Origin: Marinicella meishanensis
GTDB taxonomy: Bacteria; Pseudomonadota; Gammaproteobacteria; Xanthomonadales; Marinicellaceae
Reading direction: 5' to 3'
NCBI RefSeq assembly: GCF_019931145.1
Contig: NZ_JAIOUV010000003.1
Location: 186,001 to 250,000 of the forward strand
DNA: 64,000 nt
Shown here: piece by piece, positions 13,680-60,249 of the stretch
How the letters are laid out: every line of letters begins with the position of its first letter
How positions within the stretch are numbered: position 1 is the first letter of the stretch
Notes under the pieces: generated by a model
Database searches by the model: none
What the model was told of the DNA's origin: nothing
The model's input: the letters and a program-made list of their open reading frames with translations, nothing else
Made by a program: the position numbers and the translations under genes

Positions 13680-15542
13680 ATGTCCCTGATTCATTTTGAT
13701 CGTGTCTCCATTGATTTTGGTGCCAAGCCGGTGTTGGATGCAGTCAACCTGACCATCAACAAAGGTGAAAAGCTGGCTTTGATCGGGCGCAATGGTGAAG
13801 GAAAATCCACTTTGTTGAAGATCATGGCCGGCGAAATCCCAGTGGATGACGGTCAAGTGATCAAACAAGACGGCATCAAAGTGGCGATGATGAAACAATC
13901 GGCCGCCGATGAATCCGAATCAACGGTGCGTCAGTTTTTGTTGCATGCTTTGGGCCAGGTGGGTCATGCCCTGGAACAATATGAGTCAACCACCGACCCC
14001 CAACAATTGGCTCGGCACCAACAAGTGATCGATGAGCACCACGGTTGGGATTTGTTGCAACAAATCGAAGTGGTGACCTCGCGCTTGAAGCTGGAGCCCG
14101 ATGCGGTGATCAGGTCATTGTCAGGCGGGGTTCGGCGCCGCATCAATCTGGCGGCGGCCCTGGTGCAACAACCCGATGTGTTGTTGTTGGATGAGCCCAC
14201 CAACCATTTGGACATCGAAAGCATCCTGTGGTTACAGGACCTGGTGGCGCGGTTGCATTGTGCGGTGGTGTTTGTGACCCATGACCGGGCCTTTCTGCGG
14301 CACATCGCCAATGGCATCATCGAACTGGACCGCGGGCACATTCACCAATACGTTTGTGGCTATGACAAATATTTGGAGCGCCGTGAAGCCCGGCTGGCGG
14401 CTGAGGTCAAAGAATGGCAGCGCTTGGACAAAAAGCTCAGCCAAGAAGAAATTTGGGTGCGTCAAGGCATCAAAGCCCGCCGCACCCGCAGTGAAAGTCG
14501 GGTCAGGGATCTGGTGGCCTTGCGCGAGGAGCGCAAAAATCGGCGGCAACAATCGGGCACCACTCAGGCCAGCATCAATGTGGCCGAAGCCAGCGGTAAA
14601 AAAGTCATCGTCACCCACAACCTGGGATTTCAATACGGTGACCAAACCATCGTCCAGGGCCTGACCTGCAAAATCATGCGCGGTGACAAAGTCGGCATCA
14701 TAGGACCCAACGGGGTGGGCAAGACCACTTTGGTGCGTTTGCTGTTGGGTGAGTTGGAACCAGACAGCGGTTCGGTGAAATTGGGAACCGGTTTGGAAGT
14801 GGCTTATTTTGATCAATTGAAACAAGCCATCAACGATGAAGACACGGTACAAAACAACCTGCAATTGGGCACCGACTTCGTCGAAATCAATGGCAAGTCC
14901 CGCCATGTGATTTCCTATTTACAAGACTTTTTGTTCAGTGCCGAGAAAATTCGGGGTCCGGCCAGCGTGTTGTCAGGCGGTGAACGCTCCCGATTGTTGT
15001 TGGCCCGATTGTTTGCGCGACCCGCCAACGTCATTGTGATGGATGAGCCAACCAATGATCTGGACATGGAAACCTTGGACTTGATTCAAGACCTGTTGTT
15101 CGAGTTTCAAGGCACTCTGATCCTGATCAGCCATGACCGGGACTTCATCGACCACGTCTGCACCCAGACCATCGTGTTTGAAAACCCAGTGGATGGGCAG
15201 TACCAAGTCAATGAATATGTCGGCGGGTATGAAGACTACCTGCGCCAACGCAAAACGCCGGTTGAAGCCAAACCAGAGAAAAAAACGGTGGCCACTGAAA
15301 AGCCCAAAAAAATCTCGGACAAAAAGCTCAGTTTCAATGAAAAATATGAATTGGAACAACTGCCCGAAAAAATCGATGCCTTGGAATCCGCCATCACCAC
15401 CTTGTCAAACCAAGTCTGCGAGCCGGATTTTTACAGCCAGGATGCCGCCACCATCAAACAAGTCACCACTGAATTGGCCCAAATGGAACAGGACCTGCAG
15501 GCTGCTTACGCCCGCTGGGATGAGTTGGAAGCCAAGACCTGA
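13680..15542 (+). CDS. uup: ABC-F ATPase Uup
   Basis: A 620-residue soluble protein with two ABC ATPase domains and no TM segments. Walker A motifs are GRNGEGKST and GPNGVGKTT, ABC signatures LSGGVRRR and LSGGERSR, and Walker B motifs LLLDEPTNHLD and IVMDEPTNDLD. The charged linker between the domains and a C-terminal coiled-coil extension (about 540-620, Lys/Glu rich) are typical of Uup rather than EttA or YheS. Family members act on ribosomes or on DNA intermediates; E. coli Uup affects precise transposon excision and ribosome assembly. ATG 13680 (MSLIHFDRVSIDF) fits the family start. It is monocistronic and followed by the repeat/relic region. Confidence 0.92.
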   Translation: MSLIHFDRVSIDFGAKPVLDAVNLTINKGEKLALIGRNGEGKSTLLKIMAGEIPVDDGQVIKQDGIKVAMMKQSAADESESTVRQFLLHALGQVGHALEQYESTTDPQQLARHQQVIDEHHGWDLLQQIEVVTSRLKLEPDAVIRSLSGGVRRRINLAAALVQQPDVLLLDEPTNHLDIESILWLQDLVARLHCAVVFVTHDRAFLRHIANGIIELDRGHIHQYVCGYDKYLERREARLAAEVKEWQRLDKKLSQEEIWVRQGIKARRTRSESRVRDLVALREERKNRRQQSGTTQASINVAEASGKKVIVTHNLGFQYGDQTIVQGLTCKIMRGDKVGIIGPNGVGKTTLVRLLLGELEPDSGSVKLGTGLEVAYFDQLKQAINDEDTVQNNLQLGTDFVEINGKSRHVISYLQDFLFSAEKIRGPASVLSGGERSRLLLARLFARPANVIVMDEPTNDLDMETLDLIQDLLFEFQGTLILISHDRDFIDHVCTQTIVFENPVDGQYQVNEYVGGYEDYLRQRKTPVEAKPEKKTVATEKPKKISDKKLSFNEKYELEQLPEKIDALESAITTLSNQVCEPDFYSQDAATIKQVTTELAQMEQDLQAAYARWDELEAKT

Positions 15543-15650: not shown

Positions 15651-15681
15651 CCGTCATCTTCGGGCTTGACCCGGGGATCCA
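15651..15681 (-). repeat. Hairpin repeat, type A, left copy of an inverted pair
   Basis: Read on the minus strand: TGG, 9-nt arm, TCAAG loop, 9-nt arm, GACGG. It matches the copy at 16003-16033 in inverted orientation with one mismatch over 31 bp. Further copies lie at 59440-60041. Confidence 0.9.
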
Positions 15682-15699
15682 CTGAATATTTGAACAGGC

Positions 15700-15990
15700 A
15701 TGTTGAAGCAATGCACTGTTTAGATCCTATCAAACTGAACTCAAGGCACTCTTGACACAGGTGTTACCAGCGACTTAGTAAAATGAGTCCAACGACATCG
15801 CACAGCTGCATTCGAAGGGTTCACATCAAAATGCAAAACCCACAAGTTGGTCTATTATGAGCAACACAGCAATATGTATGAATCCATTAAAAGGGAAAAA
15901 CTACTGCAAGATTGGAATCAGCAGAAGCAGGTCGAATTGATTGATAAGTTCAACCCTGAAGGGCTCGATTTATTCCATGAGGTCATTTGA
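15700..15990 (+). pseudogene. Decayed GIY-YIG endonuclease gene (YhbQ/UPF0213-like)
   Basis: One continuous frame of 97 codons, interrupted only by three stops: TAG at 15721, TGA at 15736 and TGA at 15784, with no frameshift. Reading through them gives a near-complete small GIY-YIG protein. The first motif is V-stop-IL where VYIL is expected. Then come GTL-D-TGVTSDLVK-stop (the second motif YxG changed to DTG, and the catalytic Arg codon turned into TGA), then EGFTSKCKTHKLVYYEQH, the SIKREKLLQDW helix, and an NPEGLDLFHE tail. Length and tail match intact members of about 90-100 residues. The last 38 codons (from ATG 15874) are open but lack the active site. It lies between inverted hairpin repeats. 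Confidence 0.85.
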
Positions 15991-16002
15991 GTGCATCAGA
16001 AA

Positions 16003-16033
16003 TGGATCCCCGGGTCAAGCCCGAGGATGACGG
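16003..16033 (+). repeat. Hairpin repeat, type A, right copy of an inverted pair
   Basis: TGG at 16003, arms at 16006-16014 and 16020-16028, TCAAG loop at 16015-16019, GACGG at 16029. It is the inverted partner of 15651-15681; the 321 bp between the two hold the GIY-YIG relic. Confidence 0.9.
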
Positions 16034-16132: not shown

Positions 16133-16693
16133 ATGAATCAGAAAGAAAAATCAAAGCAAAGAATTGCTAAGCTTGAAGCGTTTGGATTTTGGGCTGAGTT
16201 TGTACTTCCAACAATGGTCAAAAATGTTATTAACATTGAATCCAGCTATCCTCATGATACCAATAACCCTGTATTGAGATTTTTAATTCCATTATCAATG
16301 AGGCATGTAGTTGAAAATACTTTATTGTCTTTGTTTGATGCTTGGACAATCTTAAATAAAGAATTGAAAAACAATCCATTTACTACTCTTGAAGACTTGA
16401 AGGATGATTATAGTAAAATAAGTATCATGAGAAGTAAGCTTGTTGCTCATAAAGAAGAAAACAGTATTGGGACAGATAAATATGAAAAGTGGTACTCTGA
16501 AAATTTTGGTAGTTATGAATCTGTGTTGATATTTCTAAAAGATTTTGCAAGCGATCTTGCAGAAAAATTAGATGATTTACCGATCGATGAAAACATCTCT
16601 GTGAGTATCTCATTAACAGAAACCATAACCAATGTAAGCGTTTCGGATTTTGAAGAGTTTATTTCAGCTTTAAAAGAAAAAAATATTTATTGA
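16133..16693 (+). CDS. AT-rich hypothetical protein, possible HEPN-fold protein
   Basis: A 186-residue all-alpha, charged protein. The G+C content is about 33-35%, against about 54% around it, which suggests recent transfer. Near residue 100 it has RSKLVAH, an R-x5-H that fits the R-x4-6-H active-site motif of HEPN ribonucleases, in a context (MRSKLVAHKEE) like AbiU2-type proteins (RNKxxAHxD). If so, it could be an RNA-cutting toxin or abortive-infection protein; this rests on one motif and is tentative. ATG 16133 is chosen over an in-frame TTG at 16112. No partner antitoxin gene is adjacent: the left neighbour is the GIY-YIG relic and the right one a convergent MarR-type gene that starts 1 bp after its stop. 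Confidence 0.7.
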   Translation: MNQKEKSKQRIAKLEAFGFWAEFVLPTMVKNVINIESSYPHDTNNPVLRFLIPLSMRHVVENTLLSLFDAWTILNKELKNNPFTTLEDLKDDYSKISIMRSKLVAHKEENSIGTDKYEKWYSENFGSYESVLIFLKDFASDLAEKLDDLPIDENISVSISLTETITNVSVSDFEEFISALKEKNIY

Positions 16694-16694
16694 T

Positions 16695-17117
16695 CTAACC
16701 CAAAATCCGATTGAATTTGCCTATCAAATGCGACAGTTGATCGCGCTCTTCGGCGCTCAGTTGGCTGAGCAATTCTTCTTCATAGCGCAGGGCATCGGGG
16801 ATCACCGCCCGCATCAAATATTTGCCGCGACCATTCAATTCAAAGTTCTTGGCCCGGGCATCCAAGGGGTGGGGCCGCTGTTGGACATAGTCTTTTTCCA
16901 ACAATGACTTCAATGTGCGGCTGATGCGCACTTTGTCCATTTCTGACAATTGGGCGATTTTCTTGGCGGTGATGTCTGGGTTTTTGTACAAGATGACCAA
17001 CACCCGCCATTCTGAAATGTTGATGCCGAACTGGTCTTGGTAATGTTCGGCAATGCCTTTGGACACTTTCAGGCTGAGGACCGACAATTGATAGGGTAAG
17101 AATTCATTGAGGTTCAT
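16695..17117 (-). CDS. MarR-family regulator of the adjacent tyrosine catabolic genes
   Basis: A 140-residue protein with the MarR winged helix: recognition region (DITAKKIAQLSEMDKVRISRT at about 48-68), wing with the D-x-R motif (HPLDARAKNFEL), and N- and C-terminal helices for dimerisation. Start 17117 (MNLNEFLPYQ) is preferred; an upstream ATG at 17168 would place the start inside the operator. It is divergent from hpd, with two near-palindromic operators between them, so it probably represses both hpd and itself and responds to a pathway aromatic acid such as homogentisate or 4-hydroxyphenylpyruvate. The ligand is inferred from context only. Confidence 0.88.
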   Translation of the reverse strand: MNLNEFLPYQLSVLSLKVSKGIAEHYQDQFGINISEWRVLVILYKNPDITAKKIAQLSEMDKVRISRTLKSLLEKDYVQQRPHPLDARAKNFELNGRGKYLMRAVIPDALRYEEELLSQLSAEERDQLSHLIGKFNRILG

Positions 17118-17123
17118 TTCCAC

Positions 17124-17152
17124 AGTGTAACCATTTTTTGTTTCATTTGAAA
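17124..17152 (-). promoter_or_regulatory. Probable promoter of the marR-type gene
   Basis: On the minus strand, -35 TTTCAA (17147-17152) lies inside operator 1, with a 17-bp spacer to -10 TACACT (17124-17129). Confidence 0.5.
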
Positions 17153-26171: not shown

Positions 26172-26216
26172 ACTGAATCGTCGACCTAACTGAATCGTCG
26201 ACCTAACTGAATCGTC
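26172..26216. repeat. 17-bp tandem repeat, about 2.6 copies
   Basis: The unit ACTGAATCGTCGACCTA begins at 26172 and 26189, with a partial third copy at 26206 that runs into the long direct repeat. Confidence 0.85.
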
Positions 26217-26242
26217 ATTGTCCGGCTTGACCGGACAATCCA
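26213..26242 (-). repeat. Hairpin repeat, type C (arms ATTGTCCGG / CCGGACAAT)
   Basis: On the minus strand: TGG, ATTGTCCGG, TCAAG, CCGGACAAT, GACG; nine perfect pairs. Further copies are at 26711-26740 and, with a TCGAG loop, at 27044-27073. Confidence 0.9.
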
Positions 26243-26297
26243 GGTTAGGTGATGGTGCAGTAGTTAAGAGACTGGTAGCATTCAGGTCCATACAGCC

Positions 26298-26328
26298 TGG
26301 ATCCTGCGGTCAAGCCGCAGGATGACGG
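26298..26328 (+). repeat. Hairpin repeat, type B (arms ATCCTGCGG / CCGCAGGAT)
   Basis: TGG, ATCCTGCGG, TCAAG, CCGCAGGAT, GACGG; nine perfect pairs. Further copies are at 26796-26826 and 27129-27158. Confidence 0.9.
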
Positions 26329-26386
26329 TTTTTATGCCAAGGATTCCCGCTCTGGCGTCATGTGTGAACTGTCGGCCTGCAGCCGG

Positions 26387-26431
26387 CTTCGACAAGCTCA
26401 GCCACCTTGAAGGTCACTGAGCCTGTTGAAG
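26387..26431. repeat. Long hairpin repeat, type E, first of three copies
   Basis: Arms of 15 bp of the CTTCGACAGGCTCAG / CTGAGCCTGTCGAAG type around a 14-20 nt loop, here with one change per arm. The copy at 26546-26595 has perfect arms; a third copy is at 26885-26929. This arm sequence is a common dispersed bacterial repeat. Confidence 0.85.
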
Positions 26432-26703
26432 TGCACTGGCTATTGGCGACGCCTGCTCTGGATGCTGTGAACCAGCCGCAGGATGACGGGATTACAGCCC
26501 ATGGTCGCTTGTTCTGGAACCCTGTATGAACTGTCCTGTAGTCGGCTTCGACAGGCTCAGCCACCTTAATTGAAAGGTCACTGAGCCTGTCGAAGTGGAC
26601 ATGATGCGGCAGCAACCACCAGCGCTTGTTCCTGCGGTCAAGTCGCAGTTTGTCTGTAGATGGGCTAAGCCCAGCTTGGCGACTCCACTGAACCATCAAC
26701 CCC

Positions 26704-26924
26704 ACTGAATCGTCATTGTCCGGCTTGACCGGACAATCCAGGTTAGGTGATGGTGCAGTAGTTAAGAGACTGGTAGCATTCAGGTCCATACAGCCTGGAT
26801 CCTGCGGTCAAGCCGCAGGATGACGGTTTTTATGCCAAGGATTCCCGCTCTGGCGTCATGTGTGAACTGTCGGCCTGCAGCCGGCTTCGACAAGCTCAGC
26901 CACCTTGAAGGTCACTGAGCCTGT
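26704..26924. repeat. 221-bp direct repeat, copy 2
   Basis: Second copy of 26206-26426. The similarity continues imperfectly: the segment after it (about 26912-27158) resembles 26581-26826, so the cluster is a diverging two-to-three-fold tandem duplication. The rest of 25992-27171 holds nothing else I can support. Confidence 0.9.
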
Positions 26925-27171
26925 CGAAGTGGACATGATGCGGCAGCAACAACCAGCGCTTGTTCCTGCGGTCAAGTGCAGTTTGTCTGTTGATGGGCTA
27001 AGCCCAGATTGGTGAATCCACTGAATCATCGACCCCACTGTATCGTCATTGTCCGGCTCGACCGGACAATCCAGGCTGGGTGAGGGTGCGGCTGTTAAGT
27101 GACTGGCCGCAGTTGGGTCCATGCGGCCTGGATCCTGCGGTCAAGCCGCAGGATGACGTGGGTGGTGTGAT

Positions 27172-59417: not shown

Positions 59418-59875
59418 GAAGCCAGATCACGCCCATCTCCGCCATCCTCGGGCTTGACCCGGGGATCCATACCATGACTTTGGGTTTGAGTTGGGGTAGT
59501 TAACCAGAATACGCCCGCTTTCGTCATCCTCGGGCTTGACCCGGGGATCCATACCATGACTTTGAGTTTGAGTTGGGGCAGGTAACCAGAATACGCCCAC
59601 AACCTCCATCCTCGGGCTTGGTTGCCAGATTAATCCCACTACCGCCATCCTCGGGCTTGACCCGGGGATCCATACCATGACTTTGGGTTTGAGTTGGGGC
59701 AGTTAACCAGAATACGCCCGCCTTCGTCATCCTCGGGCTTGACCCGGGGATCCATACCATGACTTTGGGTTTGAGTTGGGGTAGTTAACCAGAATACGCC
59801 CGCCTTCGTCATCCTCGGGCTTGGTTGCCAGATTAATCCCACTACCGTCATCCTCGGGCTTGACCCGGGGATCCA
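59392..59875. repeat. 82-bp tandem array containing gene-end copies and type A hairpins
   Basis: The motif ATGACTTTG occurs at 59392 (inside the DUF3224 gene), 59474, 59556, 59677 and 59759, spaced 82, 82, 121 and 82 bp. Full type A hairpins (minus orientation) lie at 59440-59469, 59522-59551, 59643-59672, 59725-59754 and 59846-59875. Two shortened ones at 59607 and 59810 switch after CTCGGGCTTGG into a 39-bp linker. The array is a duplication of the gene end plus the hairpin. Frames reading through it on the minus strand are artefacts. Confidence 0.92.
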
Positions 59876-60011
59876 GTTTGCGCAGCAAACACGCACAGCG
59901 TCATTATCAAGTCTTATCGATTTTCAAGTGAATTGAAACAGTCTGTTGTTTATACGTTTTGGTGGCACAAGTATTTTAGATGGTTCCACAAGTGGCATAA
60001 TGATTCCACAA

Positions 60012-60041
60012 TGGATCCCCGGGTCAAGCCCGAGGATGACG
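60012..60041 (+). repeat. Hairpin repeat, type A, inverted relative to the array
   Basis: TGG at 60012, arms 60015-60023 and 60029-60037, TCAAG loop 60024-60028, GACG. With the copy at 59846-59875 it encloses 136 bp in which I see no gene or relic. Confidence 0.9.
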
Positions 60042-60080
60042 ATGGGGTGGGTTATGCTCGAGTATTACGGTGTTGTGGTT

Positions 60081-60249
60081 CGCCTACATGGATGTGGGAG
60101 TGTCGTGTGAGCGGGATGCGGCAACGACCAAGACCGAGGATGATGTTATAGAGAGCCAAGTCCGAGGATGACGGTGATGTGGGTCGCCTATATGGATGTG
60201 GGTGTGTCGTGTGGGCAGGATGCGTAATCGACCATGCCTGAGGATGACG
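60081..60249. repeat. Imperfect 65-bp direct repeat, two copies
   Basis: 60081-60144 and 60185-60249 share CGCCTA-ATGGATGTGGG, GTGTCGTGTG, GGATGCG and a degenerate half hairpin ending GAGGATGA. They are decayed repeat material with no gene. Confidence 0.75.

Follow-up and report, generated by a model that had tools for sequence, protein, structure and literature searches.

Why does a dead gene for a small GIY-YIG nuclease lie between two inverted copies of a hairpin repeat behind a uup-like gene of Marinicella meishanensis? The question is raised by a 383-bp segment of the window, the 64,000-nucleotide stretch of DNA that was analyzed here. Similar hairpins have been described as CGTC-tagged REPs, which combine a CGTC tag, an 8-9-bp stem starting with AT, a 4-5-nt loop and a CCA tail (Di Nocera et al. 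2013, PMC3733652). According to the accessible sections of that paper, this superfamily includes dRS3 of Neisseria (equated there with CGTC-1) and RPE-4 and RPE-6 of Rickettsia conorii, its dimers are predominantly of the tags-outside kind, a dedicated transposase was apparently absent in 2013, and the mechanism of spread was left open.

The relic unit and its locus

The two arms of the unit (Table 1) are 31 nt each, 97% complementary (30 of 31 positions) and separated by 321 nt, and both of their CGTC tags face outward. Read from its tag, the right arm is CCGTC-ATCCTCGGG-CTTGA-CCCGGGGAT-CCA, from which the left arm differs in one stem base. With an unpaired CGTC tag, a 9-bp stem starting with AT, a 5-nt loop and a CCA tail, these hairpins are CGTC-tagged REPs; their tag is not the GTAG of the RAYT REPtron. 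Folded as RNA, the strand leading with CGTC gave -14.9 kcal/mol (6 of 200 shuffles were equally good) and the other strand -12.8 kcal/mol, and the strands differ because a single pair appears as T.G in one of them and as A.C in the other. The genome contains 22 copies of this hairpin type (type A) at up to three mismatches, and a reversed-pattern control gave none.

Table 1. Features of the uup-marR region, in positions of the window
Feature	Position	Strand	Details
uup-like ABC-F ATPase gene, upstream of the insertion	13680..15542	+	Pfam ABC_tran (2 stretches), ABC_tran_CTD, ABC_tran_Xtn
Whole unit, 383 bp: outward-tagged REP / GIY-YIG relic / outward-tagged REP	15651..16033	+	inverted arms; partly similar unit elsewhere in genome; tag-bounded units in other genomes
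Left CGTC-tagged REP	15651..15681	+	tag 15652-15655, 9-bp stem, CTTGA loop, tail CCA; one mismatch vs right copy
GIY-YIG nuclease relic, ~96 codons	15700..15990	+	stops 15721 (TAG), 15736 and 15784 (TGA); Glu kept
Right CGTC-tagged REP, inverted	16003..16033	-	tag 16029-16032
186-aa ORF	16133..16693	+	no Pfam match at E 0.001
MarR-family regulator	16695..17129	-	adjoins uup homologue in 10 congeners

Between the arms, Pfam PF01541 matched the relic unaided at 24.2 bits (cut-off 22.6) and, when the frame was written as protein with X at the stops, at 24.4 bits. Two TGA and one TAG codon interrupt the frame. The Tyr codon of the first (GIY) motif is a stop, as is the codon aligned with the conserved Arg, and the second motif reads LDTG where its kin have LYIG. 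Although the relic scores above the PF01541 gathering score, it has lost the conserved Tyr, Tyr and Arg and retains only the Glu of what we take to be the catalytic positions of GIY-YIG nucleases. PF01541 was the sole Pfam match in the relic and in three kin proteins, and no HUH/Y1 tyrosine transposase domain was found in them. These data agree on both points with the earlier note, which had described a small GIY-YIG frame killed by three stops and an altered second motif, enclosed by 31-bp inverted hairpin copies with one mismatch.

The upstream gene is presumably uup, and beyond the MarR gene lies a hydroxyphenylpyruvate-dioxygenase-type gene. In all 10 syntenic congeners, the uup-marR gap (30-754 bp) contained no nuclease gene by whole-genome search and no REP by the strict detector; the filled and empty states that the earlier note proposed to look for at the uup 3' region are thus both observed. 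A tblastn comparison of 17 uup loci, some of which are short, found the 186-aa ORF in the locus of the window only. By eye, the gaps of three congeners (L098, L099 and L101) contain longer palindromes beginning with GTCAT, so this site may take in such repeats repeatedly.

REPs also occur elsewhere in the window. A type A cluster at 59429-60200, distant from every PF01541 match of the genome, has five copies on one strand and one inverted copy, in steps of 82 and 39 bp. At 26210-27160, a repeated block contains CGTC REPs with two further kinds of arm (GTCATTGTCCGG-CTTGA.. and GTCATCCTGCGG-CTTGA..) as tags-outward pairs about 50 bp apart, intermixed with TTCGACAGGCTCAG palindromes.

Other GIY-YIG genes of the genome and the predicted fold of the family

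Six PF01541 matches were detected in the genome: UvrC (L010), the relic, L011, L009, L012 and L013. The last three are all situated within palindromic repeats. L013 (C14:169.8 kb) is 66% alike to the cassette over positions 52-357 of a 501-base query and has REPs of the same TCAAG/CTTGA kind, L012 lies among other GTCATTCC.. palindromes, and the surroundings of L009, which belongs to another GIY-YIG subfamily, contain CTTCGACAAGCTCAG palindromes. The UvrC locus had no type A hairpin and one long, poor detector match; the flanks of L011 had no palindromic repeats and no strict REP, only short unrelated inverted matches. Because L013 has Leu at the conserved Arg position of the family, this genome may no longer have an active nuclease for the type A family.

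At L013 (positions 1344-1423), an insertion of about 45 bp interrupts the loop of one REP, and the letters CTTG of that loop stand on either side of it. In addition, the second subfamily at L009 (1178-2300; C14:79.7-80.8 kb), represented by VYILQCSDKSYYTGST with its start lost, lies inside TTCGACAAGCTCAG palindromes. Two of the 29 other genes from the L009-subfamily search (L368 and L373) have similar TTCGAC/GCTCAG palindromes on both sides, so a parallel pairing of subfamily and palindrome may exist.

An AlphaFold2 model of a family member from Pseudomaricurvus was confident (pLDDT 93.6). Its first Foldseek matches were UPF0213 protein 1zg2, Slx1 and UvrC domains, at E values of at least 0.002 and with no match at E 0.001, and a profile search gave 1zg2, 1ywl and UvrC 1yd6. 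On this predicted fold, kinship to branch-specific nucleases would fit an enzyme that recognizes the base of a hairpin.

Association of the nuclease with REPs

Homologues were selected by protein profile alone, with flanks ignored, in three sets. Among relatives, 31 of 61 genomes had a match at E 1e-8. In an evenly drawn phylum set, 108 of 398 genomes had one at E 1e-12, and the best place of each of the 80 highest-scoring genomes was used. The named set consisted of the best 80 of at least 560 confirmed stretches; its record titles name Planctomycetota, Chloroflexota, Nitrospirota, Cyanobacteria, Myxococcota and Atribacteria, many being MAGs and one (L282) a complete planctomycete chromosome. 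Loci with a flank below 150 bp were dropped (one relative, two phylum and five named). We scored the best ungapped repeat common to the two 300-bp flanks of a gene (+1/-2, score of at least 14, either orientation).

A repeat common to both flanks, which can also come from local duplication, was found for 45 of 49 relatives, 65 of 78 phylum-set and 62 of 75 named-set genes, 172 of 202 in total; the remaining 30 had none. Control ORFs in the same loci shared a repeat in 2/103, 0/113 and 3/83 cases (5/299), and random 290-bp placements in 5/294, 20/468 and 12/450 (37/1212). Inverted sharing alone accounted for 33, 56 and 54 genes in the three sets; direct sharing was also common and reflects REP arrays around many units. 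After removal of proteins at least 90% identical, 164 of 192 genes still shared a flank repeat, a count from which near-copies are absent (L271, L288 and L230 duplicate the loci of G014, G023 and G232). Strict CGTC-REPs stood on both sides of 110 of the 202 genes versus none of 630 random placements, where zero means no clean REP because the strict detector misses worn ones; 51 of the 630 had a strict REP on one side, and 92 of the 202 homologues lacked one on one or both sides. The nearest REP tags were oriented outward rather than inward at ratios of 98:31 upstream and 85:43 downstream, and outward REPs were located at a median of 24 bp from the gene on each side. A search for the other GIY-YIG subfamily (30 best loci from 86 genomes) yielded only four loci with a shared flank repeat, one of them the genome's own L009.

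Based on the survey counts, the tag directions and the low frequency in the other subfamily, the association is strong, orientation-biased and subfamily-specific. The random placements argue against chance or a REP-rich neighborhood as its cause, and both the other subfamily and L011 argue against flank repeats as a general trait of GIY-YIG genes. The earlier note had proposed to ask whether intact homologues of about 95 residues are flanked by such hairpins in inverted orientation above chance, and would have been contradicted by a lack of enrichment within about 200 bp; enrichment was observed in the 300-bp flanks, with tags more often outward. Its restriction to TCAAG hairpins did not hold, since CGTC-tagged palindromes with a wide range of arms and loops show the link as well. 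Across Pseudomonadota there are intact units with this arrangement, and records from several other phyla, many being MAGs, also contain them. By eye, a Neisseria gonorrhoeae record filed as a plasmid (L301) also has a GIY-YIG gene with dRS3-like CGTC REPs on both sides. Phage records gave no match for one query protein.

Correspondence of protein lineage and REP type

For covariation, we used the 133 genes at which a REP 22-34 nt long was detected and counted each set of identical proteins once. Protein identity correlated with REP-core similarity (Mantel, Spearman 0.461; none of 2000 permutations as high), and mean REP-core similarity rose from 0.49 at 40-50% protein identity to 0.89 at identities of at least 80%. 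When placed on a poorly resolved protein tree with 141 rows, REP-type labels required 56 changes versus 76.4 when shuffled (0/200 as low); relatedness inflates both this and the Mantel test. Among individual labels, CCGGCG4 (8 changes versus 18.1) and CCCGCG4 (34 versus 44.2) were clustered in a way that 0/500 shuffles reproduced, followed by "other" (21 versus 25.1; 6/500) and CTTGA5 (8 changes for 10 rows versus 9.8; 7/500), which is scattered over several places in the tree. No clustering was seen for other4 (20 versus 19.9) and CCTGCG4 (8 versus 7.8).

The relic, L013 and L046, the last from another species, formed one group (SH-aLRT 96), and all three have near-identical CTCGGG-CTTG(A or C)-CCCGGGG REPs; L013 was labeled "other" because its loop reads CTTGC. 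By these comparisons, REP type partly goes with protein lineage. Among the 133 genes, the conserved residues were kept in 130 (first Tyr), 133 (second Tyr), 132 (Arg), 133 (Glu) and 132 (Asn).

Borders, filled sites and empty sites

Three units in G004 and G014 were 85-94% alike over 419-467 aligned bases, with similarity starting at GTCATACC and stopping at GACG or within about 5 bases of it. Units of about 376 bp, 75-90% alike, were found in four records (a SeepSRB2-type deltaproteobacterium, Desulfobacterales, Desulfobacteraceae and Nitrospirota); they run from GTCATTCCGG to GGAATGACG and their flanks are unrelated. Intact relatives thus recur as units of about 376-420 bp whose surroundings are unrelated and whose similarity stops at the tags or a few bases away from them.

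Orthologous sites with and without the unit were identified in a sister genus (g3). Site 1 is filled in G025 (L052), with 386 bp between two ORFs, and the corresponding gaps of G031, G019, G023 and G030 (15, 161, 159 and 114 bp) had no CGTC REP by the detector (4/4). Site 2 (L062) is filled in G019 in a REP-gene-REP arrangement; G025 has there a gene-less inverted tags-outward REP pair with 48 bp between the copies, and G023 and G030 have neither gene nor REP, so that two of the three empty sites are REP-free. The gene, together with CTTGA-type REPs, is present on two Shinella plasmids (L306 and L313). Where these have about 680 bp, four other Shinella plasmids with aligned flanks have 113-116 bp with no REP and no gene, and neither was found in L312 and L315, which align over less flank. 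At the gltA-lpxB site of Sinorhizobium, S. meliloti Ak57 has, besides an intact gene, a second copy that is truncated, and Sinorhizobium K101 shows REP-like hairpins without a gene by eye, where the strict detector finds none; the K101 state also fits insertion of the gene into REPs or gene loss.

Several of the filled sites and compared genomes are fragmented assemblies, and because the compared genomes and outside flanks are too diverged, a target-site duplication or exact joint is not readable. A sharp-bordered unit in different contexts was found for intact relatives and not for the relic itself, and the filled and empty orthologous sites of this section likewise concern intact relatives. 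Gene-less REP pairs more than 800 bp from a surveyed nuclease gene were tags-outward in 36 of 52 cases, with a median spacing of 33 bp, an arrangement as expected of non-autonomous relatives of the units. Beyond the uup 3' region named by the earlier note, filled and empty sites exist in genus g3 and in Shinella plasmids, with empty sites that are REP-free by the detector.

In Nitrospira (L226, L227 and L247), a larger element surrounds the REP-nuclease unit. Its terminal inverted repeats, TGGGTCTTCTCC/GGAGAAGACCCA, are about 125-150 bp from the gene on the upstream side and 95-100 bp from it on the downstream side; upstream contexts differ among the three copies.

Discussion

The locus behind uup is quite probably a dead copy of a minimal mobile unit, in which a GIY-YIG nuclease gene lies within inverted, tags-outward CGTC REPs. 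For the minimal mobile cassette that the earlier note had envisaged, mobility of the unit is well supported by its borders and by filled and empty sites, and a catalytic role of the nuclease stays hypothetical. From the gene and repeat data, we infer that the nuclease may drive movement of the unit, and we read the latter as REPtron-like, with a GIY-YIG nuclease in the place of RAYT.

Several known systems can be compared. Like the REPtron (RAYT/TnpA-REP, GTAG REPs) and REPINs, the units consist of a small gene flanked by tagged palindromes, often inverted; gene-less tags-outside pairs spread as well, and repeat type goes with the protein. They differ in that the tag is CGTC instead of GTAG, the unit measures merely about 380-420 bp, and the protein is an unrelated one of 95 aa, not an HUH tyrosine transposase. 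Proteins of the UPF0213/YhbQ-like standalone GIY-YIG kind are similar in size and fold neighborhood (1zg2, 1ywl); however, the other subfamily searched mostly lacks shared flank repeats. GIY-YIG homing endonucleases of the I-TevI type are an example of this nuclease domain linked to DNA mobility, whereas the proteins described here have no further Pfam domain, no intron was seen, and they are hairpin-bounded. The CGTC-tagged REP superfamily shares the tag, an AT-first 8-9-bp stem, a 4-5-nt loop, the CCA tail and tags-outside pairs, but here a nuclease gene lies inside the pair, and the main text of PMC3733652, in which no associated transposase gene was found, does not contain "GIY".

The most serious alternative, although an unlikely one, is that the protein is a free-standing homing endonuclease with REPs as its target, whose gene enters existing REPs that something else has moved. 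It is the states of Sinorhizobium and G025 that give this explanation its weight, with hairpins but no gene in K101 where Ak57 has the gene, and a bare REP pair in G025 where G019 has REP-gene-REP; many loci also have extra REPs beyond the nearest pair. An endonuclease entering existing REPs would not account well for units in unrelated contexts that include both REPs and end at or near the outer tags, for empty sites that lack the REPs too (all four at site 1, two of three at site 2, and four plus two more diverged Shinella plasmids), or for a REP type that goes with the protein across hosts.

It is rather improbable that the gene is a passenger, i.e., cargo or a stabilizer of REP pairs that are moved by RAYT/IS200-type or other transposases. 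REPs paired with such transposases are already known (PMC3733652, accessible sections), and the genome has four Y1_Tnp matches, three above the family cut-off. None of these four loci (2.3-3.4 kb each) has a CGTC REP by the strict detector, which argues against RAYT as the mover in this genome, and the three with usable flanks share other repeats. In addition, none of the species listed in the accessible sections of PMC3733652 is reported there to have CGTC repeats around a tyrosine transposase gene, and retention of the conserved nuclease residues in 130-133 of 133 genes argues against mere cargo. Among the repeats common to the flanks of the Y1_Tnp genes (L361-L363), one contains a GGGGTCAG motif, which resembles the GGGGWSAS motif of TIRYT elements as given in the accessible part of PMC3733652.

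It is very improbable that the hairpins do not move and serve a small nuclease gene only in transcription or mRNA stability: their median distance of 24 bp places them within reach of translation start and terminator, but the many gene-less copies (22 in this genome), the filled and empty sites and the end of similarity at or near the tags all argue against it.

For the REPtron-like unit, the following mechanism is proposed. Acting like structure-specific Slx1/UvrC-type GIY-YIG enzymes, the nuclease would recognize hairpins of its own REP type, probably where the DNA is single-stranded or cruciform, and would nick at the tag or stem base. GIY-YIG enzymes hydrolyze DNA and are not known to carry out strand transfer; insertion of the unit therefore needs host functions. 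The freed or copied hairpin-bounded unit could re-enter intergenic DNA via host replication and repair, and in trans the nuclease may spread gene-less REP pairs as a counterpart of REPINs. At uup the nuclease would have died in this genome, its REPs persisting among the 22 type A copies.

We tend to think that such hairpin-bounded units represent a bacterial class of autonomous mobile elements, at about 380 bp among the smallest known, whose spread is driven by a 95-residue GIY-YIG nuclease that has no transposase domain. In trans, the nuclease would also spread the CGTC-tagged REPs found in many phyla, dRS3 of Neisseria among them, and each nuclease lineage would be matched to its own hairpin. 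Among the matches listed in the open PMC literature, no paper joins GIY-YIG proteins with REPs; preprints fall outside this scope, and an unseen report is possible. Within their accessible text, the GIY-YIG phylogenomics paper PMC1564403 has no "palindrom" in its main text, RepRanger (PMC12306157) contains neither "GIY" nor a word starting with "nuclease", and PMC6006769 and PMC5082802 do not contain "GIY".

The GIY-YIG protein is a likely partner for the CGTC REP family, which had none. Our data name a candidate enzyme, borders and a matched substrate for these REPs, and their spread is therefore directly testable in vitro and in vivo. If the proposal is true, a GIY-YIG-driven minimal mobile element would join the known routes of DNA mobility, and many small genes annotated as "GIY-YIG nuclease family protein" would have a role.
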